Below are positions 31,101 to 54,204 of a DNA stretch of 64,000 bases, piece by piece. The DNA comes from an uncultured Balneola sp. Its GTDB lineage: Bacteria; Bacteroidota; Rhodothermia; Balneolales; Balneolaceae. Below the pieces are notes generated by a model, which was given only the letters and a program-made list of their open reading frames with translations, ran no database searches and had not been told where the DNA came from. Every line of letters starts with the position of its first letter. The first letter of the stretch is position 1. The translations under genes were made by a program, and so were the position numbers. The stretch covers positions 1-64,000 of the forward strand of contig CAJXQC010000002.1 of assembly GCA_913058495.1 (NCBI GenBank). The letters run 5' to 3'.

Positions 31101-33935
31101 TAAAGTAAGTTCATCCGAATTTGAATCAATTGAGGTATTTACTAAATCAGGGTTGCTGTTGGTGGTTACCGAATAGACTAAATCAGCAGCATTATCTTCA
31201 GCATCACTAAATACAGAAATAAGAGCAATAGCATCAATGTTTCCATCTTCGTTTACAGCAATATCCGCTATAGCATTGGTGACAACCGGAGCATTATTGG
31301 GAATATTTATTTCTACATAGGCTGAGGTATCAGCTATACCAAGAGAAGTACCATCAAACGGAGTTATTTCAACACGTATAAATTTTCCTGCGTCACCTGA
31401 TTCAACTACATAACTACTATCTGTTTCTCCGGATATCGTACTTTCATTAGTACCAGATCCATCATCCGCAACTAACCAGCGGAATTGAGCACCGGCATTA
31501 GGATCGTCCTCAAAATCATTGTATTCATATACTGCAAAAATCGTTTCACCAACATCAGGAGTTCCTGTGATATTGCCAGCAATTGCGATAGGACGAACAT
31601 TTATTTTTACGAAATCAGAAGTCGACGTTGAACCCTGTTGTGTTCCGTCATTTGGAGTAACTTCTACTCTGATGTATGCTCCTTCTTCAGCTGGTGTAAC
31701 TACATAGGTATTGTAAGTAGCACCTGCTATCGGAGTTAGTCCGGTTCCGACTTCATCTGCTGCTACATACCATTGAAAAGTAGTTCCTGATTCCAAATCA
31801 CTTTCAGGATCAGAATAGGTATAATCTGCGGTCAACGTATCGCCAATTCCCGGAGTTCCTGTAATGGTAACAGTACCGGCGGAAGGAGGTTGATTTGATG
31901 CCGCTACTTCAGAATAAGAGCTGGAAACTAAAGTTCCGACATCAGTTCCATCATTGGGTGTTACATCAACTCGTAAAAATTTATCTAAATCAGCTGACGC
32001 TACCGTATATGTTGAATCGGTTGCTCCAGCTATTTGAGTTGCATTTGTACCACTAGCATCGTCTGCACGATACCACTGAAATATCGTTCCTGATTCGGGA
32101 TCATTATCAGTATCACTGTAATCGTAGGTTACCACTAATTGATCTCCCAATTCAGGTAAGTTTCCTGCATTTGTTCGGTTATTTATAACAAGGTTTGAGG
32201 CAGCAGGGATTGTATTGGCTGATTCTCCATTCGGATTTAATTCCTGCTGTATTGGATAGCCGTTGTTTACTCCACTTACTAACTCCCAAACGTCTGTAAA
32301 ATCCCATGAAGCTCCTGTATAGGTTGACTCTGTTTTCATTTGTGAAGTAGTCTTACCAGTTATGCCAGAAGTAGAGCCTGCGCCAACGGCAGTGGTAGTT
32401 CCACTTTCATCAGTATCCCAAAAACTGTTTTGTGCAGCTCCAAAACCGCTTTTTAAGCCAACAAATCCTCCAATATTGGTACTTCCACTTACCGTTCCTG
32501 TCGAAAAACTATTTGTAATTATACCACTGTCTAGGTTACCAACTAATCCTCCAACCTGAGATGATCCTGATACTGCACCGGTAGCAAAACTATTTTCAAT
32601 ATTATCGTTGGCAAAACCAACCAGACCACCGGCATTATCCCCACCATTTACTGAACTTGTAGAATAGCTCTTATTAATAGTTTTTAGATTATGATTTCCA
32701 ACCAATCCACCAATATCAGAGCCGGTAGCCGTTACAGACCCCGTAGAATAAGACGCTGTAATATCGCCTCCATTCTGCCCCACTAATCCACCAACTTGAG
32801 AGGTTCCTGTTACAGAACCATTATAATAACTATTAGTAATGGTTCCATAGTTCTCACCAGCAAGCCCGGCTGTATTGGAAGCACCGGTAATATCCCCTTG
32901 ATCAATTCCTAAACTATCTACAACTCCACCTTCACCAATGGTAGCAATTAGTGCTACGTTACTATTCGATGAGCGATTTATGAAAAGACTTGTGACTGTA
33001 TATCCCTGCCCGTCTATATTTCCTGTAAATGGTGTATCTGCACCAATAGGTTCAAATCCGGCTCCACTATTCCAACTTGAAGTTCCTGAGGCGTCAATGT
33101 TTTGGGTTAAAATAAAGTAATCCGTCAGATTATTACTGATTTCCTGAAGCTGTTCGGCGGTAGTAATTTGATATGGATCTCCCTGAGAACCATCTCCTCC
33201 GGCAAAACTTACCGAGACCGATTCAGCTTGTATGGGTCCACTCAGCACACTTTCTCCAGAGGTGCCTGCATCTGTACCATCACTTGGAATGACAGAAAAA
33301 CTCATGTATTTGCCTTCATCAGCAGTAACTAATGTATAAGTATTTGCGTCAGCTCCGCCAATTGCTGTTTTTCCGGTTCCTCCTGCATCATCGCTTCGAA
33401 ACCATGTATACAAAGAACCACTTTCAGGATCGTTATCAGGATCACTATAATCATATGAACCTGACAGTAGAGAACCTACTTCTAATGTTCCGCTGATTGA
33501 AACATTTGATACTGTTGGCGGATTGTTACCACCTCCACCAACGCTTTCACTAATAGGGCCAACAGGATCGCTTGGGGTAGGCATCCCGTTGTCTGTACCA
33601 TTAGAAGGAGTTACCTCAAACACTATTAGTTTTCCTTCATCAGCTGCAACCAGTGTATACGTTATTGAGGTTGCTCCATCGATTGGCACCGGTGGATCAA
33701 ATTCACTGTCAAACCGATACCATTGATAAATAGAACCGTCTTCGGGTATATCATTCGGGTCATTGTACTCGTAAGTACCCGTCAGCGTTTCCCCAACTTC
33801 TGTGGTGCCAGTAATTTCAACAAAGTCCGCAAACGGACCGGAAGGTGGTGGCGGAAACTGAGCCTGTGCAGGTATGGCTATCAATAGTGTTAATAATACG
33901 ATTAGATTAGATAAAAGCTTAATTGAAGGTCTCAT
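13170..33935 (-). CDS. Giant 6921-residue modular surface protein with T9SS sorting domain
   Basis: A single uninterrupted 20.8-kb frame. Signal peptide 1-25 (IPAQAQ). Order of modules: two Ig-like repeats (about 30-235); GLUG repeats (240-565); three Ig-like repeats (570-870); cadherin-like repeats; three tandem super-modules starting at residues 1091, 1723 and 2342 (PKD-like WGDGTVE domain, BspA/DUF285 repeats, Ig-like and cadherin-like domains); a beta-propeller of DGTKMF...VEYNL repeats (about 2970-3230); three CSD...TGVVNG-headed DUF285 blocks; cadherin-like repeats; a second propeller (about 4790-5070); four further PKD/DUF285 blocks; a dystroglycan-like domain; and a C-terminal T9SS type A sorting domain (about 6835-6921, [10 protein letters not shown]...LASGIYFYR). 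DUF285 repeats have a 25-residue period ([20 protein letters not shown]). Such proteins are secreted by T9SS and act in adhesion or cell contact; the ligand is unknown. The gene start overlaps the receiver gene upstream by 17 bases. Confidence 0.93.
20490..23650 (-). repeat. Three tandem DUF285 blocks with near-identical segments
   Basis: Inside the giant gene, three blocks each run from an Ig-like domain through a Cys-containing head (VTITCS..) to DUF285 repeats and a TDGGRTN or equivalent tail. At DNA level 22207-22371 and 23191-23355 are almost identical over about 165 bases, and the tail segments near 21820-21900 and 22890-22970 are nearly identical and locally GC-rich. This indicates recent duplication or gene conversion. 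Confidence 0.8.
25050..30665 (-). repeat. Three tandem ~1.86-1.9-kb super-modules
   Basis: Codon anchors for VLSVD recur at 30665, 28769 and 26912, giving periods of 1896 and 1857 bases. Each unit encodes PKD-like WGDGTVE, DUF285 repeats ([23 protein letters not shown]), an Ig-like TLTPA.GM domain and two cadherin-like domains. Units 1 and 3 are the closest: about 200 bases (26830-27030 versus 30583-30783) differ at only a few positions. Confidence 0.85.
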
Positions 33936-34314
33936 GTTGTACCCTTGTATCCGTATTTAATTTCTTCGAATTTAAAATTGGTTGTAAATCAGAGAGTTTG
34001 TCTTTTGCGACAAAAGCCAATAAACCGAGTTTTTCTGCTTTTCGCCTAAAACTTGGTGTGTTGTAGCTGCTAACCAATATGATTTTTGCATCAGGATCTT
34101 TCTTTAGAATTTCTTCCGAAACAGTGAAGCCACTTATACTATGTAACTCTATATCCATCAGAACAAAATCCGGTTTTTGAGATTCATACTCTAACATTGC
34201 CCCTTCGCCTGTCTCATATTCTATAATCTGATGCATTTTACCCGTAGCAAGTATTACAAAATTTTTAATGGTTTGACGCATTTCAGCATGGTCATCAACT
34301 ATCATTATTTTCAT
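33919..34314 (-). CDS. Single-domain response regulator (receiver only), giant-protein partner
   Basis: A 131-residue CheY-like receiver without an output domain. The acidic pair Asp7-Asp8, phospho-acceptor Asp54 (VLMDIE), Ser82/Ser83 and Lys104 (FVAKDKL) are all present, so it can probably be phosphorylated. A 15-residue tail follows the domain. Its stop codon lies inside the start of the giant surface-protein gene (17-base overlap), which implies co-transcription and coupled translation. It is a paralogue of the receiver at 38548-38904. Without an output domain it may work by protein contact, as a phosphate sink or in a relay with the two neighbouring kinases. The bipartite promoter element lies 93 bp upstream. 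Confidence 0.88.
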
Positions 34315-38547: not shown

Positions 38548-38904
38548 CTACCTTTTGAACTCAAGAAAGTTGTGAATAACTGAAAGATCGTCCTTGGCAA
38601 CAAAACCAATAGCTCTTATTTCTTTTGCTTTCTTTCGAAAGATCTTTGTGTTGTTACTCGTTACAATTATGATTTTTGCTCCGGGATCCTGCTTCAAGAT
38701 ACACTCTGTGGCTTCAAACCCATCCATTTTCTTCATTTCAACATCCATCAGAACATACTCAGGTTTATCGATAGCATAGTTTTGTACTGCGTCTTCACCA
38801 TTTTCGTATTCAATGAATTCTATCGGCCCTACAATAGATAGTAAAATTATGCTTCTTAATATTATACGTGTGGCTTCATGATCATCTACAATCATTATCT
38901 TCAT
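38548..38904 (-). CDS. Single-domain response regulator (receiver only)
   Basis: A 118-residue CheY-like receiver with Asp7-Asp8, phospho-acceptor Asp54 (VLMDVEM), Thr82/Ser83 and Lys104 (FVAKDDL). It has no DNA-binding domain. It is a close paralogue of the receiver at 33919-34314, sharing the MKIMIVDDH start and the VLMD and FVAKD blocks at the same residue numbers. It precedes the PKD lipoprotein gene on the same strand, but that gene has its own promoter element. It may relay or absorb phosphate from the adjacent Reg_prop kinases; this is inferred from position only. Confidence 0.88.
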   Translation of the reverse strand: MKIMIVDDHEATRIILRSIILLSIVGPIEFIEYENGEDAVQNYAIDKPEYVLMDVEMKKMDGFEATECILKQDPGAKIIIVTSNNTKIFRKKAKEIRAIGFVAKDDLSVIHNFLEFKR

Positions 38905-42341: not shown

Positions 42342-42998
42342 TCATGTTCTCGAACTATGTTCAACTGCGAATTTCAGAAGGGCGTGGGCTCCACTTAAAT
42401 CAAGTTTGCTGCAAATATTACTTCGGTGGTTTTGAACCGTTTTAATGCTGATGTTTAACTCTTCAGCAATTTCCTGATTTGTTTTCATCATGGCTACCAT
42501 TTCCAGCATATTTTTTTCGGAAGGAGTAAGCAAACTAATTCCTGATTTATCAGTTGCCGAACTTGCCAATCTGTTGTTTCGCTTTATCAGAAAATCAGAG
42601 ATTTCAGGGCTTAAATAGTAATTCCCCTTTAAAACGGTGTGTATGCAATTCATAATTTCGGAAACTGTATTTTCTTTCAGAACATATCCTTTTACACCAA
42701 TATCCATTGATTTATTAAACACAGATTCATCTTTAAACATGGTAAGAAAAATCACATCAATTTTGATTGATTCTTTTTGAACACGTTTTGCCACGTCAAA
42801 ACCTGATAGTTTCGGCATTTCAATATCAAGTATAGCAATCTGAGGTTTTTTATCACGAATGAATTCCAATGCCTGTTCACCATCCTCAGCTTCATAAATT
42901 TCTATATTCGGTTCCGAATCCAACACTTGCCTTAACCCTTTTCGAATAAGAGCGTGGTCATCTGCGATAACAATAGATATTTTATTTTTCATATTCAT
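42342..42998 (-). CDS. NarL/LuxR-type response regulator
   Basis: A 218-residue regulator: a receiver domain (acidic pair Asp13-Asp14, phospho-acceptor Asp58 in ILDIEMP) and a C-terminal LuxR helix-turn-helix (about 155-212, LLTPSEKNMLEMVAMMKTN, then EIAEELNISIKTVQNHRSNI). I chose the ATG at 42998 (ATGAATATGAAA; 42992 is equally possible) because it places the receiver at the usual distance from the start. The gene begins inside the last codons of the kinase gene upstream, so the two are coupled. As the only DNA-binding regulator between the four bipartite elements and the kinases, it is the best candidate to bind TAGG-N8-CCTA dyads; that is inference. Confidence 0.92.
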   Translation of the reverse strand: MNMKNKISIVIADDHALIRKGLRQVLDSEPNIEIYEAEDGEQALEFIRDKKPQIAILDIEMPKLSGFDVAKRVQKESIKIDVIFLTMFKDESVFNKSMDIGVKGYVLKENTVSEIMNCIHTVLKGNYYLSPEISDFLIKRNNRLASSATDKSGISLLTPSEKNMLEMVAMMKTNQEIAEELNISIKTVQNHRSNICSKLDLSGAHALLKFAVEHSSRT

Positions 42999-45867
42999 CA
43001 ATAGGTATTTCGATCTTAATTGTAGTTCCATTCTTTATTACAGACTGTATATCAATGATTCCACCAAGTGACTGAATACGTTCATGCATGCCAAGAAAAC
43101 CAAGGCCCTCTGATATACCATTCCTTACTAAATCAAAGCCTTTTCCATTATCCCATATTGTAACTGAGATTGTTCTGTCTGTTCTTTTTATCAATACTGA
43201 AGCCTCTTTAGCAGAAGAATGCTTTATAATGTTCTTGACACCTTCCTGAACTACCCGATAAAAATGAATCTCCTTATTTTCATGGATTGCTTTGTCAACA
43301 TTGTCAATATGATAACTCCACTCGATAGAAAGCGTGTTCTGTAATTCTTCACAAAGGTTCTCGATAGCTTCGGTTAAACCAAATTTTTCCAAATGTACCG
43401 GTCGCAGGCCATGAGAAATACTACGAACTTCACCTATTGAGATTACTGCACTTTGCATAATCTCATCAAGCTCTTCCTCTAATTCAATTATATTTCCGGC
43501 TTTCTTTTTAGCCAACTCTACTCTGTTTTTGATTACAAGTATCTGTTGCCCTAATCCGTCATGCAGTTCGGAAGCGATTCGTCTCCGTTCTTGCTCCTGA
43601 GAATCAATAAGCTGTTCACTAAATCGTTTTTTTCTTTCGTTTTCTTCTCTCAATAAATTTGTACGAATTCGATAAAAAAGAAATCCCACTCCAAAAATCA
43701 GACCGGAAACGATAGCAATAAACCAATCTTTTTGCCAGAATGGAGGAACTATAATTACATCAACAGAAGCGCCTTCGTAATTCCAAACCCCATCATTATT
43801 ACTCGCGATTACCTGAAATTTATAATCTCCGGGAGGTATTTTTGTATATATCGCTTCTCTTCTTGATCCTGCTTCAACCCAGGTATCATTCAACCCTTCT
43901 AGTCTGTACCTAAATCGTACTTTTTCAGGATCCGTAAAGTTAATAGCGGTATAATCGAACTGAAGGAAGGCTTCATCATAGTTTAATTTCACAGCTTCTG
44001 TTTCCAAATTGCTTCCTTCACTGTTTTTTATTTTTTCAATATAAACCGGTGGTGAAGTGCTGTTTTTATTTACATCCCGAGTTGAAACTTTGGCAATACC
44101 GGCAACAGTTGGAAAATAGATATTCTTATCAGAATCATATATAAAACTAGGCTGGAATCCGCCATTGGTTTCGGGAGAATTCATACCGTCTTTACTACTG
44201 TATGAATAGGAGATCACTTTGGCTATTTCTCCATCCGCCAATTTATTCAGACTCTCTCTGCTTGTACGGTGTATCCCTCGATTGCTTCCCATCCAAAAGT
44301 AACCATTTTCATCTTCAATGATTTGAGAAACTACATTATCGTACAAACCATTACCGGTATTAAAATGAAAAATCTCATCATTCTTAATTCTAAAAAGTCC
44401 ATCACCATAAGTTCCTATCCAAAAAATCCCATCTTCATCTTCGTGAATTGCTCTTACATGGGGTTGGGTTATTATATCTGGTTCAGAATTAATAGCTAAA
44501 CTAATTTTCTGAATTTCCTTGTCTTTGTAAGTATTTAACCCTCCATTGGTTCCAATCCACATTTTACCTGAAGAGTCTTCATAAAGAATTCTGGCATCTC
44601 GGTAGAATAATCCTTCATTTTCAGTTAATTTCTCTGTAAATGCATTGCCATCATAAATAAAAATTCCTGTGGTTGTGGCCACCCATATTCTATTTTTAGA
44701 ATCTTCTGTAATAGCAAATACCGAATAACCTTCGTACCCATCCTCACTCCCAAATAACTTTCCCGGTTTGTCAATTGACTCTGTCATATAAGGCTTTTCA
44801 CCACCTAGCCATATTCTACCTTTTGAATCTTGAAATACGGACCAATAACAACCTGTATCAATATAGTTATGCACTGATGATAAGGTTACTTTCCTATCCT
44901 CCCATTCATAAATACCATCACAATTTGTAGACATCAATATTTTTCCATCATCGAGTTTAGTGATGGAGAGCATTTTTTCATTTTGCAGCCCATTCTCTTT
45001 GTCAATCATAGAAATAGCCTTTTTTCTAAAGCGATAAAGACCGTCTCCTTCCGTTCCTATCCAATAATTTCCTTCATTATCTTGCAGAAATGATTTTAAA
45101 CGAATTGATTTTTGCTCTTTAAAAGGGGTAAGTGATTCAAATCCAGAATTAACGTTAACTCCGATACCGGATACTGTTGTTATATATTGATTGTTGTTGT
45201 TATCAAATTTCAGATCTATTACAATCTCATTTACTGGGTTAAATCTGATTAAGGACAGTTCTTCACCCATTTCAAGTTCAGTAATACCGTCAGCAGTTAC
45301 TACTAAAATTCTTCCTTCTTTATCCGGGTGTTCGTATACATAATTAATCTTTGATTCGATGTAAGTAATATTCTCCCAGACCTTTACTATAGAGCCGTCG
45401 TAAATTCGGTATAAATTTTTTTCAACCCCAAACCATTTCCCTTGTTTACTTTTAAGGGCATCTTTTCTAACCAATGAATCTGTGATTATCTCAATTTTTT
45501 CAAAACCTTCTTTTTTATAAGCAAAAAACTCATTAAAACCATACGCCCATATTGAACTATCAAAATTCTCTATAACACCAAATCTCTGGCTAATACCATC
45601 CCCGAGTTTGTACGTATTACATTCCTCACCTTTTATTCTGGTAATTAGTGTATTAGCATGGGCAGGGAACATCCATATTCCTCCCTCTAAATCAGCATAG
45701 ATATCTAATATCTGATCAGAAATCATACAAGAAGTGTTTGATCGATCAAATTTAGTGAACTTATCACCATCAAATCTGGCTAAACCACCAAAAGTGGCTA
45801 TCCAAATATATCCATCCGCCGTTTGCAGAATTTCATTAACTGAATTCTGAGGTAATCCATCTTCCAT
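42982..45867 (-). CDS. Reg_prop sensor histidine kinase, frameshifted at the 5' end
   Basis: The readable frame gives 961 residues: Reg_prop propeller repeats (about 5-610), a Y_Y_Y domain (about 625-700), a membrane segment (about 709-732), HisKA_3 with phospho-acceptor His769 (SELHDGLGQQ), and HATPase (DNGKGF, GLGFLGMHERI). It is a paralogue of the kinase at 39153-42158 over its whole length. The N-terminus is not the true one: the frame stays open upstream and encodes SIPNADDYVVTEFG, matching the paralogue's SQIPNSENYVINKFG, but no start codon exists in that frame. A signal peptide lies in another frame 5' of this. Removing one base near 45907 would join them. The 3' end overlaps the NarL regulator gene. 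Confidence 0.88.
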   Translation of the reverse strand: MEDGLPQNSVNEILQTADGYIWIATFGGLARFDGDKFTKFDRSNTSCMISDQILDIYADLEGGIWMFPAHANTLITRIKGEECNTYKLGDGISQRFGVIENFDSSIWAYGFNEFFAYKKEGFEKIEIITDSLVRKDALKSKQGKWFGVEKNLYRIYDGSIVKVWENITYIESKINYVYEHPDKEGRILVVTADGITELEMGEELSLIRFNPVNEIVIDLKFDNNNNQYITTVSGIGVNVNSGFESLTPFKEQKSIRLKSFLQDNEGNYWIGTEGDGLYRFRKKAISMIDKENGLQNEKMLSITKLDDGKILMSTNCDGIYEWEDRKVTLSSVHNYIDTGCYWSVFQDSKGRIWLGGEKPYMTESIDKPGKLFGSEDGYEGYSVFAITEDSKNRIWVATTTGIFIYDGNAFTEKLTENEGLFYRDARILYEDSSGKMWIGTNGGLNTYKDKEIQKISLAINSEPDIITQPHVRAIHEDEDGIFWIGTYGDGLFRIKNDEIFHFNTGNGLYDNVVSQIIEDENGYFWMGSNRGIHRTSRESLNKLADGEIAKVISYSYSSKDGMNSPETNGGFQPSFIYDSDKNIYFPTVAGIAKVSTRDVNKNSTSPPVYIEKIKNSEGSNLETEAVKLNYDEAFLQFDYTAINFTDPEKVRFRYRLEGLNDTWVEAGSRREAIYTKIPPGDYKFQVIASNNDGVWNYEGASVDVIIVPPFWQKDWFIAIVSGLIFGVGFLFYRIRTNLLREENERKKRFSEQLIDSQEQERRRIASELHDGLGQQILVIKNRVELAKKKAGNIIELEEELDEIMQSAVISIGEVRSISHGLRPVHLEKFGLTEAIENLCEELQNTLSIEWSYHIDNVDKAIHENKEIHFYRVVQEGVKNIIKHSSAKEASVLIKRTDRTISVTIWDNGKGFDLVRNGISEGLGFLGMHERIQSLGGIIDIQSVIKNGTTIKIEIPIDEYEK

Positions 45868-46454: not shown

Positions 46455-49400
46455 TTACTTAATAAGGGTTAGTTTCTTGATGATCACCGAATTCCCTGCT
46501 CGAAGGCGATAAATGTACATCCCACTCGCGAGGTTAGAAGCATTGAAGTTTAGCGTGTAACGTCCGGCTGTTTTGTTTTCACCATTCAACAATGTGGCTA
46601 CTTTTCTTCCCAGAATATCAAACACTTCCAGTGTTACTTTTCCGGTGTTTGGAACTCCATAAGCAATGATTGTACTTGGATTAAATGGATTTGGATAGTT
46701 TTGATGAAGCTCCACTTTAGTAGGCAGGTCAATTAGCGGTTCATTGCTTACCGCTTGTGCCGGTGAAACCGTCAGCACAAATCGTGTACCGGATCTTTTT
46801 TGCTTAGCAGTTTGGAAAATAGATTCCAGACTTGGTGGGGACGCAATTTCTTGCGTCTGTACCTTCTTTACTTTTGCTGCATCCATAGTAAACTCATAAG
46901 ATTCTTCAAGGTCTTTAGTGATATCAAGTTCCGAGTCATACAAAGAAACTTCCCATCCCTCGGGGATATTTAAATCACCTTTAGAAATATGATGCGTTGT
47001 ACCACTTGCAGAAGTTTGAAGTGCCAATGGAATCTCAAACGGCTCTGTAATAATCGGTAAACTGTTTATATCCAGATGAGTTGTATCATTTAGGATGGAC
47101 GCCAACGTTACATAATTTGAAGAAAGTGGATTGAGTTGATGCGCATCCGAAGCATCTAGCCCAAATTCACCGTCTTCAGAAAACTGGAACCAGGCTTTGT
47201 TCTTTAGTCCTGAACTATCTGATAATTCGATTGAAAAATAAGTCGGCTCGGATTTAACCAACTGTTTACCAAGAAATCGTTTAGCGGAATCGGTTTTTGC
47301 TGATACCGGAATATTTAGAGTTGGGCTGGCTTCCGTTGTTTGCACAAAAAATGCATTGAAAGGTCCCACTTCCCCATCTGTTAAACTTCCCAGTGTTCCA
47401 TTCCAGCTTTTCCAGGATGCGGAATTGATATCATACACATACACCGAATTCGATAATCCCGAACGTGTAAATCCGTCCCAATCAACGTCATTTCGGAATG
47501 TATTACCTACTAACGCCCAACCGTTTACATTAGAATTTAAAAGCGTAGTTAATGATTGTGTTCCTTTCGGCTCACGACCTTCGAGCTTTAGTGTTTTCGG
47601 AAAACCTGAATCTCCTGCTACACCAGGTCCATTATCGTCGCTGAACACGTACACCAAAACTCCTTCTCCGGGATGCAGAGAATCGGACATATTACTTACA
47701 GAAGTCCAGTTGGAATTAGACAGACTTGTTGAGGTATTTGGCCATCGATATACATTGGAAGCTCCTCCTGAATGATTTGCGCCGGTAAATCCTTGCGTCC
47801 AGAAACTGCCTAATAATGGAGCGAATGAAGAATCCGCCACCGGACTGGTCATAATTCTCCAACCTTCAGCTCCTGTTAACTTTTGAGACGACTCTTTATA
47901 GTTCTTGATGGCATATTTCTTAAATAAATAGGATTCCACTTTTCGGCGATCATTATCGTTTAGAACATTTTTATATATAATTATTTCGGCAATCTGCCCC
48001 CCAAACCAGAACGTTCCTCCTGTTCTTACACCTACAAACAGCTGTGCAGATACTGAACTTTGAGCATTTACAGAGATCTGGGTTTTTCCGCTCCGATTTG
48101 CCGCTACAGTTGATGTTGTACTTGTAGCCCGGACATTGATCAGCTGAACGGTTCCATCTGAAAAATCACCCACCGATCCGATGTCAGTATAATTTCCTGA
48201 ATTCGGAATAAACCGTAAACCTGAAGTTCCGTTGGTGTGTAGTTCAAAATTCTCATTTGAACCGGCTAACAGGAAGTCGATCTCATTAGTTGCAGAAGTT
48301 GTTTTCGCTACCATAAATACTTCATAATCGCTACTCTGAATACCAAGCGTAGCGGTAGTTGGTGAGACCATATAGGAATCAGTTCCATTAAAGCCGATTG
48401 TACGTTGGTTGTTGATGGCGCTGTCGATAAGTACCGGGCGTTGTAATAAAATGGACTGTGTAAGGTTGTTATCATTCCCGCTTAGATCACCCCAAGTATT
48501 TAAAGAATCCCCGAAAGTAGTGAGCCCCCGACCTGCATCTACATGCATTTTGAGGTTTGTGGTTGGGATTGGAGATAAATAAGTACTGAAATTTGGAACA
48601 GGTACATGAGAAGGGTGATTTTGAGTTGGGTCGCTTTGTCCTAGCTTTCCAATATGATCAACATCCAGATTACTAACAGCGAAAGATGAAGCAACTACAG
48701 ATCCGTTATCCAACAATAGTAAAGAGTGTTCATAATCCGTAGCTATATCAACTACAAAACGACCGCTTACATTTGCTGACTCTATAAGCGTTGGAACTGT
48801 TAAATCTGTAAAGGTACTTACATTAAAACCAATATGCTTTCCATTACCAAAAGCATATGTTTTTCCGTCTTCAGTAAGAATGATGGTTCCTCTTCTGTTA
48901 CTCTGAACTTTAATCACCTTCTTATTTACAATACTTGAATGCGTTACAACTCTGGGAGTACTATTATCAACTTTATCACCTTGTCCCAATTGTCCGTCGC
49001 TGTTTTCACCAAATGTGATCAATTGCCCATCTTCGTTTAGAAGTATAAACGAGGATACGCCCCTGCTGACAATCGATCCTGATTTAATTTTTTTTGCCGT
49101 TATGGTAGCATGAGTTAATGCCGTTGGTACATTTAGGTTAACTGATGTACCATGTCCTAAATTACCATCCAATCCATAACCAAAAGTAAAAGCTGTTCCA
49201 TCCGAAGCAACTAAAAGAGTAGCACGGCCACTAGACGCAGCATGTATGATTTTTTTTCCCGAAAGGTTTGCATGGGTAAGGCGAACCGGTTGCGCTCTTC
49301 TATTGTTGTCCCCTAATCCAAGCTGTCCAAAATTATTATCTCCAAAGCCATACACCACTCCATCTTCAGTCACAATAAAAGTCACCGATAGCGTATCTAC

Positions 49401-51014
49401 TGCTCCAACCACAATTTGTTTAACGATTTTGTTATCAATTAATGAAGCATCCATTAATACCGGATCGTAATGATCGAGGCTATCTGTTCTTCCTAATTCT
49501 GCATAACTATTTTTCCCGAACTGGTAAATTTCATTGTTGGAATTAACTACATACGTTTGACGGTAGCCCGCAAAAATGTTCTTTACTGATACGTTGCCAA
49601 GTTTTGAAGAGGGAATTAGCGTTGGACTTTTTACTGTAGGTAAATTTGAGCGAAGTGAATTACCTACATATCCTGTAGAATAAACTCGCCCAAAAGAATA
49701 GATAAGGCTGTCTGTAGTAACAAAATAGTTCATGGTTTGACTCGTATACATTTTTGCAACGGTCTTTCCATCCATTTCTGTTTGTATGACAGGTCTGGGA
49801 AACGCTTCACCGGCTTTCCAACGCCCGGTTCCGGATGATTGAGAACTGGAAAACCAAGATAGTCTTTTTAATTGACCTCCAAATGTTAAAATAGTCCCAT
49901 CAGAAGCTCTCATATAAGTATATTCTGAATCCTCAGAACTTATTTCAACAATATTTTTCCCAACAATATTGGAGTGAGTTAACTGTACAGGTACAATAAT
50001 GTCTGTTAGCGGACGACCCAAGCTTTCCTCACCATTCCTGCCCCCAAAACTAAATACAGTTCCATCAGAGGCTAATAATGTTGCTGATTCTTCATTTCCA
50101 ACCACATCAATAATGGTTTTACCTTGCAAATTGCTATGCGTTATTTCTGTAGGAGTATTTACATCTACGTTTGGACCTCCCGGTGGTTCATACCCAAGAG
50201 GCCCAAGCCTAACTCCTGTACTAAAGACCTTGCCTGATTCGGTAACAAAGTAGCTTGACCCCACCCCCCCGGCTATTGCTTTTATAATGGTTTCTCCGGG
50301 AATATTCTGGTCCATACGTACAGGTGAATATGTACTTATACTATTTCCTATTCCCAAATCTCCGTTAGAATTTCTTCCATATACCCATACTTCGCTACTG
50401 TCGGTTCGTAACAAAACATGTTGTCTACCAGAGGAAATTTCCACTACCTTTTTGTTCACCATTCCATTTATCAAAGTAGGTTCTGTTATGGGATTGGTTG
50501 TGGTACCAACTCCAATAAATCCATATGGATTATCGCCTATTACAAAGACTTTTCCGGAAGCTGTTCTAAAAATACTATTCTTCTCTCCTGCCTCTACATC
50601 CACGATTGTATGCCCTTCAAAATTAGCATGTGTTATTTCTGTAAGTGTTGTATAGTTATTGCTTCCACTCAAAGCGAGTTGGTTTCTATCGTTTGATCCT
50701 ATACCAAACATTCGACCATCTGCTAATAGCACTATAGCATGTTCATTGTCATATGCAGTAGCTATGTCAACCACTTTTTGACCATTTAACGAAGGATCAT
50801 TTGCCAGCCCGGGAATATCAACCCGGTTAGTGTTGGATTGCCCTGCGGTGCCAAAATGGCCGCCTCCAAATGAATATAATGACCCATTTTCTGTGAGCAC
50901 CAAGCTTTGATTATAGCCGGTTACTACTTTTGGAGTAGTGCTTTGCCCAAAAGCTGAAAAGCTTATTACTGTTAAAAAAAGTACCCCGAAAAAAAGCGAA
51001 CGTATTGGTTTCAT
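46455..51014 (-). CDS. RCC1-repeat surface protein with LamG-like and T9SS domains
   Basis: A 1519-residue secreted protein. Signal peptide 1-23 (FSAFGQ). Residues about 25-820 form many RCC1-like repeats (YSFGGGHFGTAGQ, VYGFGDNNFGQLGLGDN, FTFGYGLDGNLGHG), enough for two propellers. A LamG-like concanavalin domain follows (about 825-1045, FNGTDSYM...FWFGGQIAEIIIY), then a Bacteroidota-type GWRIMTSPV domain and a C-terminal T9SS type A sorting domain (about 1430-1519, [15 protein letters not shown]...LASGMYIYR). T9SS secretion to the surface or medium is expected; the ligand is unknown. It follows the hybrid AraC regulator on the same strand and has a 21-bp-spaced direct repeat upstream, so it is a probable target of that regulator. 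Confidence 0.92.
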   Translation of the reverse strand: MKPIRSLFFGVLFLTVISFSAFGQSTTPKVVTGYNQSLVLTENGSLYSFGGGHFGTAGQSNTNRVDIPGLANDPSLNGQKVVDIATAYDNEHAIVLLADGRMFGIGSNDRNQLALSGSNNYTTLTEITHANFEGHTIVDVEAGEKNSIFRTASGKVFVIGDNPYGFIGVGTTTNPITEPTLINGMVNKKVVEISSGRQHVLLRTDSSEVWVYGRNSNGDLGIGNSISTYSPVRMDQNIPGETIIKAIAGGVGSSYFVTESGKVFSTGVRLGPLGYEPPGGPNVDVNTPTEITHSNLQGKTIIDVVGNEESATLLASDGTVFSFGGRNGEESLGRPLTDIIVPVQLTHSNIVGKNIVEISSEDSEYTYMRASDGTILTFGGQLKRLSWFSSSQSSGTGRWKAGEAFPRPVIQTEMDGKTVAKMYTSQTMNYFVTTDSLIYSFGRVYSTGYVGNSLRSNLPTVKSPTLIPSSKLGNVSVKNIFAGYRQTYVVNSNNEIYQFGKNSYAELGRTDSLDHYDPVLMDASLIDNKIVKQIVVGAVDTLSVTFIVTEDGVVYGFGDNNFGQLGLGDNNRRAQPVRLTHANLSGKKIIHAASSGRATLLVASDGTAFTFGYGLDGNLGHGTSVNLNVPTALTHATITAKKIKSGSIVSRGVSSFILLNEDGQLITFGENSDGQLGQGDKVDNSTPRVVTHSSIVNKKVIKVQSNRRGTIILTEDGKTYAFGNGKHIGFNVSTFTDLTVPTLIESANVSGRFVVDIATDYEHSLLLLDNGSVVASSFAVSNLDVDHIGKLGQSDPTQNHPSHVPVPNFSTYLSPIPTTNLKMHVDAGRGLTTFGDSLNTWGDLSGNDNNLTQSILLQRPVLIDSAINNQRTIGFNGTDSYMVSPTTATLGIQSSDYEVFMVAKTTSATNEIDFLLAGSNENFELHTNGTSGLRFIPNSGNYTDIGSVGDFSDGTVQLINVRATSTTSTVAANRSGKTQISVNAQSSVSAQLFVGVRTGGTFWFGGQIAEIIIYKNVLNDNDRRKVESYLFKKYAIKNYKESSQKLTGAEGWRIMTSPVADSSFAPLLGSFWTQGFTGANHSGGASNVYRWPNTSTSLSNSNWTSVSNMSDSLHPGEGVLVYVFSDDNGPGVAGDSGFPKTLKLEGREPKGTQSLTTLLNSNVNGWALVGNTFRNDVDWDGFTRSGLSNSVYVYDINSASWKSWNGTLGSLTDGEVGPFNAFFVQTTEASPTLNIPVSAKTDSAKRFLGKQLVKSEPTYFSIELSDSSGLKNKAWFQFSEDGEFGLDASDAHQLNPLSSNYVTLASILNDTTHLDINSLPIITEPFEIPLALQTSASGTTHHISKGDLNIPEGWEVSLYDSELDITKDLEESYEFTMDAAKVKKVQTQEIASPPSLESIFQTAKQKRSGTRFVLTVSPAQAVSNEPLIDLPTKVELHQNYPNPFNPSTIIAYGVPNTGKVTLEVFDILGRKVATLLNGENKTAGRYTLNFNASNLASGMYIYRLRAGNSVIIKKLTLIK

Positions 51015-51084
51015 AATTTTTAAGAATGAAATGAATAGATGGTTTGAACATAAATTGTCCTGATTTGAATCTACTCTTTTTCAC

Positions 51085-51118
51085 CTGCGCAAACGTGTCA
51101 ACTTTCTGCGCAAACGTG
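51085..51118. promoter_or_regulatory. Direct repeat upstream of the RCC1 gene
   Basis: CTGCGCAAACGTG occurs twice, at 51085 and 51106, exactly 21 bp apart, 71 bp upstream of the RCC1 start codon. Both copies are followed by (T/C)CAA. AraC-family regulators typically bind two direct half-sites about 21 bp apart, and an AraC-domain hybrid regulator is encoded immediately upstream. The GC-rich repeat stands out from its AT-rich surroundings. Confidence 0.75.
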
Positions 51119-51267
51119 CCAAAATTGAGTGAATAACTCTTTAATGCAGGTTGTGAGGACATTGTTTCGGAGACTTCGGGACAGGCTTACCCGATGTTGC
51201 TACTAAGATATTTTTGATCCCGTGCCTTTAAAAGGTGTACGGAGCTTAAGTAAGCTACACGAAATAT

Positions 51268-51385
51268 ATCTCCCCTTGAGGGGAGATGAATAAACCGGCA
51301 GTTCCCAATTTATTCTGAGGGGAGTTGCATGATTTAAAATCCAGCAACACCCTCCGTCTTACTTCAAGGGAGGATTTTATCCTAA
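51268..51385. repeat. REP-like palindromic cluster
   Basis: A perfect hairpin ATCTCCCC-TTGA-GGGGAGAT (51268-51287) is followed by a second, imperfect one built on CCCTCCGTC...AAGGGAGG and ending just before the regulator stop codon. CTCCCTTGA/TCAAGGGAG words are typical of intergenic palindromic elements in this group of bacteria. No gene lies in 51015-51387. Confidence 0.6.
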
Positions 51386-51387
51386 TT

Positions 51388-54204
51388 TCAGCTAAGCGGA
51401 TGCACACCGAAACGTTCTTCATAGACTTTACGGAAGCTGGTGGAACTTTTATACCCAACAGCGTTGGCAAGTTCTTCCAGCCTCATTGTTTTATCCTGCT
51501 CGATTAGTCTGCGTGCTGTGACCAATCGAATTTCCCGGATAAATTCGGCGGGGGTCATCCCTGTTTCTAACTGAATGTTTCTATATAAAGAACTCCGACT
51601 TTGCGAAAATTTTTCAGCCAACGACTCAACCGACAAACTACTGTCCTTAATATTTTTAGAAATGTATGCCATTACTTTTTCTGATAACTTTTCTCGGCTT
51701 TGTAATGCTTTATCCGAAAGAGTGATTTCTAATGCTTTTTTCTTTTGGTAATAGCGTAGTAAATTTTGTGTTTTCAGCATCAAATGCTCTTGAACAAATG
51801 GTTTAGTGATGTAATCAACTACACCAATTCTGAGCAGATGTAATTTATCTTCCTCCAGCGCCTTTGCAGTGAGTACAATAATGGGAATATCTTTCCACTT
51901 CGGTTTTTTCATCAATACTTCAACCAGTTCCAAACCGCCCATGACAGGCATCATCAGATCTGTTATTATTATATCCGGCGTATAGGAAGAAGAAAGCAAC
52001 TCAATAGCCTTTTCTCCATTTTTAGCTTCTTTGACCGGCCCAAGTTCTGATAAAATGTTACTCACATATTCTCTCATGTCCTGATTGTCTTCCACTAAAA
52101 GAATACTGTATTCGCTTTCGGTCTCAACAACAGGCTTAGCCGGGTAAAGCTGATCTTCTTCCAATGCATCTTCAACCATAGCAACTTCTTTTTCTTTCTC
52201 TTTAGAAACCGGAAGTTCCAATCTGAAACAAGCACCGTTCTTTACATCAGCATCTATAGAAAGCTCGCCGTTATGTATACGTGCCAAAGTTCGGCTGAGC
52301 TCCAGCCCCACTCCCATCCCTTCTATATATTCTGTTTCTTCTCTTTTAATTCTGTGGAAGCGCTCAAAAATAGCTTCTTGTTCATGTTCCGGTATTCCGG
52401 GGCCCGAATCATGAACTGATACCACAAATAGTTCTTCTTCTACAGATGTTTGAATAGAAATGTATCCGCCATCGGGTGTAAATTTAATGGCGTTAGAAAT
52501 CAAATTATTGATCATTACTTCTACTTTTGAACGATCAGCAAATAAAACGACACCTTTAGCATCAGGCAAAAATGTAAAGGTATGTCCATAATATTCTGCC
52601 AGAGACCGAAATGATTCCACAGACACAGACACTATGCTATCTGCATAATAATACTTTCGATTCAATGTAAGCTGATGCTTATCTGCTTTAGTAAGATCAA
52701 TGATTTGATCTACCATATCATGAAGTCGGTTTAAATTTCGTTTTACGATCGATAAATCTCTTTGGTGATCCTGATGAGTCACCTCTTCTGAGCGCAATAA
52801 TTTATTTACCAATCCCTCACCAATTGTTAAAGGGGTTCTGAATTCATGAGATATATTAGCAAAGAAACGGTTCTGGAATTCGTTAGCGACTTCAAGATCT
52901 GAAGTTCTTTCCTGAACCTTCGCTTCAAGGGTTTCGATCAAAGCAGCATAATTACTGGCAACATTAAAAGTAAGTGCAATTGGGATGCCTGTATATGCCA
53001 TCAAAATTGATATGATAAAAAGAACATGACTTTGTGAACCAAAAGCGATATAGGGCAACACATATAATAATCCCCCGCCAACAGTAAGTGCTAAGCCGGT
53101 TGCAATGATCCAGATTTTATTTTCTGAAGATTTCCTTTTTGCTTCCCAAAGTGAGTAGATCCCATATATCAAAGTTCCTGCGACTAATACAGGGTGTAAA
53201 AGATTTAACCATCCCCTGTTTATGAAAATGGAAATAACTCCAATAATTATTGAGATAAACAGAATACCGGCAAGAGTCTTCCGGGGGATCGGCAGATCAA
53301 AGATTCTGCGCAATGCTATCAAAAAGAAATACACTACAAAAATGAATGAAATAGCATAGGAAAACTCTGCAAAATATAAGTACGAATAGGTCCAGTCTGC
53401 CATCGTATCACTTAAAGTGGTAAAAGCATGAAGCAACATGAAAAAAGTGGTAAGAGAAACGTACGTATGATATTGACCTTTAAATTTTACTGCCAGATAG
53501 GTATGTATCAATACAAGAAGAGAGAGCAACATAAGTGCTCCGCCGAATATAAAAGCCCGATGCCTGCGTTGAAATATTTCGTAATCCGGATAAAGAACAA
53601 GATAAATACCGTTTTCAAACCATTGCCATGTTCTAAAGTAAGTCGGATTAGTATGATCGGAATATTGTACTAACAAAAAATTGGACCCCGGGCTGAACAT
53701 GACTCCCGTTTGGACTTTGTTTACGTATCTTGACAGAACTTCTTCATCAGGATTGTCAGAAACATTGCCATTTTTAAGTATTTCAATTCCGTTAAGCCAT
53801 ATTGTTACGGGCTCCTGTCCGAAATAAGATAAAATCCATGGAATTCCTGCAATGGATGAATCTGCGATAAACTCAGCCTCAAACCATCCATGATTTTTCC
53901 ATTTTGGATTAGATTTGAGTTCATTAAGATCAGTCAGATCAACAGAGATTGTATTACTGAGATTACGCTTCGAGTTGACTTCCTCAGGGTTATCAAACGA
54001 AAACTGCCAGCCATTCAAATCAAATAAAGTAAGATTTCCATAGCTATTGGTATCAGCGATACTGATTGTTTGAGCTATATTTACTTGAGCATGGGCTAGG
54101 CTTCCAACTATAAAAGAAGTGATAAAGATTAAGAAAATTGATTTCCCAATCGCTCTAAATTGGAAACACTGCGTTTTATAATTCAGCAATAAGCACCCCG
54201 ACAA
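51388..54204 (-). CDS. Membrane hybrid histidine kinase/receiver/AraC regulator
   Basis: A 938-residue one-protein two-component system. Order: signal/anchor (about 20-40), periplasmic galactose-binding-like 7TMR-DISM sensor (about 45-205), seven membrane segments (about 215-420), HisKA with His453 (NISHEFRTPL), HATPase (FADRSKVEVMINNLISNA, GMGVGLELSRT; about 565-675), receiver with Asp749 (IIITDLMMP), and an AraC helix-turn-helix pair (about 840-938, LSVESLAEKFSQSRSSLYRN and LEELANAVGYKSSTSFRKVY). It resembles Bacteroides hybrid two-component systems, but with a 7TM sensor instead of Reg_prop repeats. The frame opens at TTG (54204); no ATG lies before the signal segment, so the exact start is uncertain. 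Likely target: the adjacent RCC1 gene. Confidence 0.92.
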   Translation of the reverse strand: MSGCLLLNYKTQCFQFRAIGKSIFLIFITSFIVGSLAHAQVNIAQTISIADTNSYGNLTLFDLNGWQFSFDNPEEVNSKRNLSNTISVDLTDLNELKSNPKWKNHGWFEAEFIADSSIAGIPWILSYFGQEPVTIWLNGIEILKNGNVSDNPDEEVLSRYVNKVQTGVMFSPGSNFLLVQYSDHTNPTYFRTWQWFENGIYLVLYPDYEIFQRRHRAFIFGGALMLLSLLVLIHTYLAVKFKGQYHTYVSLTTFFMLLHAFTTLSDTMADWTYSYLYFAEFSYAISFIFVVYFFLIALRRIFDLPIPRKTLAGILFISIIIGVISIFINRGWLNLLHPVLVAGTLIYGIYSLWEAKRKSSENKIWIIATGLALTVGGGLLYVLPYIAFGSQSHVLFIISILMAYTGIPIALTFNVASNYAALIETLEAKVQERTSDLEVANEFQNRFFANISHEFRTPLTIGEGLVNKLLRSEEVTHQDHQRDLSIVKRNLNRLHDMVDQIIDLTKADKHQLTLNRKYYYADSIVSVSVESFRSLAEYYGHTFTFLPDAKGVVLFADRSKVEVMINNLISNAIKFTPDGGYISIQTSVEEELFVVSVHDSGPGIPEHEQEAIFERFHRIKREETEYIEGMGVGLELSRTLARIHNGELSIDADVKNGACFRLELPVSKEKEKEVAMVEDALEEDQLYPAKPVVETESEYSILLVEDNQDMREYVSNILSELGPVKEAKNGEKAIELLSSSYTPDIIITDLMMPVMGGLELVEVLMKKPKWKDIPIIVLTAKALEEDKLHLLRIGVVDYITKPFVQEHLMLKTQNLLRYYQKKKALEITLSDKALQSREKLSEKVMAYISKNIKDSSLSVESLAEKFSQSRSSLYRNIQLETGMTPAEFIREIRLVTARRLIEQDKTMRLEELANAVGYKSSTSFRKVYEERFGVHPLS

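Follow-up and report, generated by a model that had tools for sequence, protein, structure and literature searches.

A tandem repeat with 21-bp spacing as the predicted operator linking a membrane HTCS to an RCC1 surface protein in Balneola

A pair of direct repeats in front of a giant secreted RCC1 protein gene of an uncultured Balneola sp. is very probably the operator of the adjacent hybrid two-component system (HTCS); as predicted from sequence, the regulator would use it to control the RCC1 gene, which encodes a cargo protein of the type IX secretion system (T9SS), most likely by activation. In the genomes compared, the predicted arrangement of sensor, operator and surface protein recurs in related bacteria, even after exchange of the regulator's sensor end. 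The analysis covered a stretch of 64 kb, here called the window, and the features that matter for the argument are the following; both operator sites were defined from the sequence and from comparison across relatives.

51388–54204, minus strand: HTCS of 938 aa with 7TM membrane sensor, HisKA, HATPase, receiver and AraC-type HTH; proposed regulator (TTG start uncertain)
51268–51287, minus strand: palindrome forming a terminator-like hairpin, located between HTCS gene and operator
51106–51122, minus strand: operator site 1 (promoter-distal), TTGGCACGTTTGCGCAG
51085–51101, minus strand: operator site 2 (promoter-proximal), TTGACACGTTTGCGCAG, offset from site 1 by 21 bp
51066–51073, minus strand: probable -7 element, TAGATTCA, its TA 11 bp after site 2; consensus TAnnTTTG
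46455–51014, minus strand: RCC1-repeat (beta-propeller) secreted protein of 1519 aa with a C-terminal T9SS type A sorting domain; proposed target

The initial annotation had reported that CTGCGCAAACGTG occurs twice at 21-bp spacing, upstream of the RCC1 gene and downstream of the HTCS gene. Both copies are present without mismatches (51085–51097 and 51106–51118), and the coordinates place them as described, within the 373 bp that separate the two genes. The repeat extends beyond the reported 13 bp: the 17-bp copies at 51106–51122 and 51085–51101 differ from each other at one position, and the full element, read on the coding strand from 51122 down to 51085, is TTGGCACGTTTGCGCAG-N4-TTGACACGTTTGCGCAG with AAAG as N4. 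A genome scan for the pair had been named beforehand as a check; it found a single occurrence of the exact pair in the 3.4-Mb genome, in a position resembling a promoter, and not many copies unrelated to promoters. Single copies of CTGCGCAAACGTG with up to two mismatches were at background level in the same genome (18 matches vs 27 for a reversed-pattern control). Exact direct repeats of at least 13 bp with a period of 14–60 bp occurred twice in the whole window, one of them being the 21-bp pair, while first-order Markov simulations of 64 kb gave a mean of 0.025.

In Bacteroides, the operators predicted for HTCSs are direct repeats in which two conserved sites follow each other in tandem at an average distance of 21 bp (PMC3878776), and the element in the window shares this form and spacing. 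In the intergenic DNA flanking 80 other, unrelated HTCS loci of the Bacteroidota type (among the matches listed), 21 bp was the commonest direct-repeat period, with 28 repeats at a score of at least 9, compared to 1–14 at other periods. The tandem half-site layout earlier ascribed to an AraC-type regulator thus takes the published form of an HTCS operator, found again near other HTCS loci, and this match together with the independent peak assigns the element by its architecture to the HTCS operators.

The neighbouring gene, previously described as a membrane hybrid kinase with an AraC domain, indeed encodes a membrane sensor, HisKA, HATPase, receiver and AraC DNA-binding HTH on one polypeptide, and it is the only one of hybrid size among the seven genes for AraC-domain proteins in its genome. 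The Reg_prop/Y_Y_Y periplasmic propeller sensor, which is typical but not universal of HTCSs, is absent from this protein, which has a 7TM sensor instead. Its first 430 residues were modelled as a signal helix, a beta domain (about 45–206) and seven membrane helices (211–429) with a mean pLDDT of 82; the structure model therefore contains both the 7TM part and the extracytoplasmic beta domain of 7TMR-DISM sensors. The Pfam model 7TMR-DISM_7TM had no match in the window HTCS itself and was matched by 3 of 11 members of its clade (best E 2.5e-5). The best matches of a structure search, human Wntless and GPCRs, were weak (TM about 0.3) and were set aside as evidence of relationship.

The promoter layout downstream of the operator was compared across 18 operator sites. 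In all 18, a TA follows the second repeat after 11–12 bp (mean 3 of 18 at other offsets), and it usually opens a -7 box of the TAnnTTT type. This motif agrees with the -7 consensus TAnnTTTG (PMC7366714). The distance from operator to start codon was mostly 81–108 bp. A scan for sigma-70-type promoters gave no match, which is expected for a Bacteroidota-type sigma. The spacing between site 2 and the TA therefore suggests that site 2 occupies the stretch immediately before the -7 element, in the manner of a class II activator. Because the terminator-like hairpin separates the HTCS gene from the operator, the RCC1 gene seems to have its own promoter. The hairpin palindrome ATCTCCCCTYRARGGGAGAT (51268–51287) was also found at 17 places in the genome with up to two mismatches, and at none in the control; it is a repeated intergenic hairpin.

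Under the proposed mechanism, the 7TM sensor would receive an extracellular or membrane signal, and phosphate would pass from His453 to the receiver Asp749 within one polypeptide. The AraC domains would then dock in dimeric form, next to each other on one DNA face, at the two 17-bp sites, which by sequence lie two helical turns apart, with site 2 ending 11 bp before the -7-like box. The bound dimer would most likely recruit RNA polymerase (class II activation), which would lead to expression and hence surface display of the RCC1 protein.

Activation is not certain, because the clade of the window HTCS lacks the S/CHIP-DK contact residues between receiver and DBD. The window protein has KDIP-RN, with all four variable positions changed, and the consensus, which is that of most HTCSs but not of all, was found in no member of the clade, vs exact matches in 52 of 86 other HTCSs (among the matches listed). 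A non-consensus contact motif has been linked to phosphorylation-independent binding or to repression, and an HTCS of B. thetaiotaomicron with such a motif represses its genes (PMC11253607). By analogy with that work, the absence of S/CHIP-DK may reflect a different mode of inhibition in the clade. The HTCS might therefore bind the operator as a repressor, or independently of phosphorylation, with the signal relieving or altering binding; we consider this unlikely, yet it is the likeliest of the alternatives. Against it, the operator is placed upstream of the -7 box and leaves it uncovered, which suits activation better, and the phosphorylation residues, the kinase His and the receiver Asp, are invariant in the HTCS alignment.

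The proposed target of the HTCS carries a Por_Secre_tail/TIGR04183 domain at its C-terminus (43.2 bits vs a cut-off of 23), as do T9SS type A cargo proteins. A Pfam scan of 14 window proteins found neither SusC nor SusD, which belong to the polysaccharide-utilisation loci typically controlled by HTCSs. Downstream in the same gene block lie a LuxR-type response regulator (42342–43031) and two propeller kinases. Two small ORFs (33919–34314 and 38548–38904), which by sequence resemble stand-alone response-regulator receivers, immediately precede the genes of a 6921-aa T9SS protein and a PKD-domain protein, so that each large secreted protein in the block follows a signalling gene.

Searching 129 genomes of the order with a tolerant operator pattern gave 14 sites in 10 genomes, and none with the reversed-pattern control. 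When the same genomes were searched with the kinase-to-AraC part of the regulator, all 10 operator-bearing genomes were found to carry the window HTCS clade, and all were among the 12 with the closest HTCS matches; in the remaining two, G070 and G046, the operator site is present in diverged form. Within the genus itself, operator and HTCS were both present in three of eight genomes and both missing in the other five. The probability of such co-occurrence by chance was 3e-13 when phylogeny was left aside, and 0.002 when the count was restricted to contrasts within three genera; since the genomes are related, the co-occurrence is not fully independent.

Twenty loci of relatives were chosen by their HTCS. 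Nearly all have a gene similar to the T9SS tail adjoining the HTCS or one gene away, and in many the 17+4+17 operator precedes that gene. Most of the 14 pattern sites are found 81–108 bp ahead of a giant T9SS cargo gene, and some of these genes are unlinked RCC1 paralogues; such extra sites before paralogues distant from the HTCS occur in G035 and in G038, where the distance in contig coordinates is about 200 kb. RCC1 homologues matching over the full length were confined to genomes carrying the window HTCS clade. In line with the link that the initial annotation drew between the AraC regulator and the RCC1 gene, the same operator adjoins the orthologous HTCS and precedes T9SS cargo genes in related genomes. 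Two of the 14 sites, both in G041, do not stand before an intact cargo gene. One precedes a split lnt-like gene that is followed by a cargo gene. The other (L076:5580) is a perfect operator pair just past the RCC1 gene, with no ORF of at least 90 aa directly downstream.

This distribution also bears on whether another regulator binds the repeat, such as the LuxR-type response regulator or a different AraC protein, the HTCS being a mere neighbour. Candidates exist, given the seven AraC-domain genes of the genome and the LuxR-type regulator and propeller kinases of the same block; we nevertheless regard this as very improbable, as the operator occurs only in genomes with the window HTCS clade and stays with that clade, and its 21-bp tandem form is that of HTCS operators. 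The probability that the repeat is a chance or structural feature without a regulatory role is close to nil: the 64-kb simulations gave no repeat at the 21-bp period, position and sequence are conserved across families of the order, and no point in its support was found.

While the predicted operator and the type of proposed target persist, the sensor types differ between relatives. The window HTCS has a 7TM sensor, whereas its close relatives in G003, G006, G020 and G035 have propellers (Pfam), as probably does that of G070, to judge by its length and similarity. G003 keeps the operator and has an RCC1 protein 91–92% identical to that of the window, and its sensor is a propeller. A tree of the HTCSs was built from the kinase motif onward, covering the kinase-to-AraC part with the sensor columns excluded. 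In this tree 7TM and propeller types were intermixed, with five changes, at least two of which are forced by well-supported branches, suggesting that sensors have been exchanged.

The proposed T9SS targets vary by genome as well and contain RCC1, FG-GAP/Laminin_G, GLUG or Laminin_G modules; in more distant relatives the proposed target is of a second type, an lnt-like gene with a T9SS cargo gene after it. In three loci (L058:11828-15630, L045:3235-8270 and L075:4721-8529) an operator-like site was seen before an apolipoprotein N-acyltransferase-like gene and then a T9SS cargo gene, the lnt-like gene of L075 being split into two ORFs. At the HTCS C-terminus of L045 and L058 the first HTH helix is kept, while the second has SSSGFKR in place of SSTSFRK or SATSFRK; the operator sites of these two loci keep TTGGCA and differ in the 3' half, and a link in specificity with the changed helix is possible. 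As a separate observation, in G017 (L042:12714-19613, L079:7753-11658) a different propeller HTCS adjoins an FG-GAP T9SS protein preceded by a 21-bp direct repeat of its own, TTTCGTCGGATTTGTTC / TTTTGTCGCATGTGTTC.

The whole might represent a modular sense-and-display cassette of the Balneolales, a proposal that we hold to be about evenly balanced. A fixed kinase-receiver-AraC output and a fixed operator would be joined on one side to interchangeable sensors, either 7TM or propeller, and on the other to interchangeable N-terminal modules of the secreted proteins (RCC1, FG-GAP, GLUG, Laminin_G); a single constant switch would then wire different signals to different surface proteins.

Like the HTCSs of Bacteroides, the predicted regulator unites sensor kinase, receiver and AraC HTH on one polypeptide and has tandem sites about 21 bp apart near the genes it would regulate. 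Unlike them, its proposed targets are T9SS surface proteins and not polysaccharide-utilisation genes, its sensor is of the 7TM type, and the S/CHIP-DK contact motif is missing. With 7TMR-DISM sensors the modelled protein shares the signal helix, the extracytoplasmic beta domain and the seven membrane helices, but in the window protein this sensor module continues into a kinase-receiver-AraC output, and the Pfam model does not match it. The RCC1 protein resembles T9SS type A cargo in its Por_Secre_tail/TIGR04183 C-terminus and its RCC1 propeller repeats, and differs in its large size and in its proposed placement under a dedicated HTCS, for which our open-access literature searches found no described case. 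HTCSs are known to regulate glycan-utilisation genes; here, one clade is seemingly dedicated to secreted surface proteins. With sensors exchanged while operator and output remain constant, and mostly one operator per genome, the arrangement offers a testable circuit from signal to surface, and this natural series of sensor swaps provides a way to ask how HTCS sensors couple to a common output.
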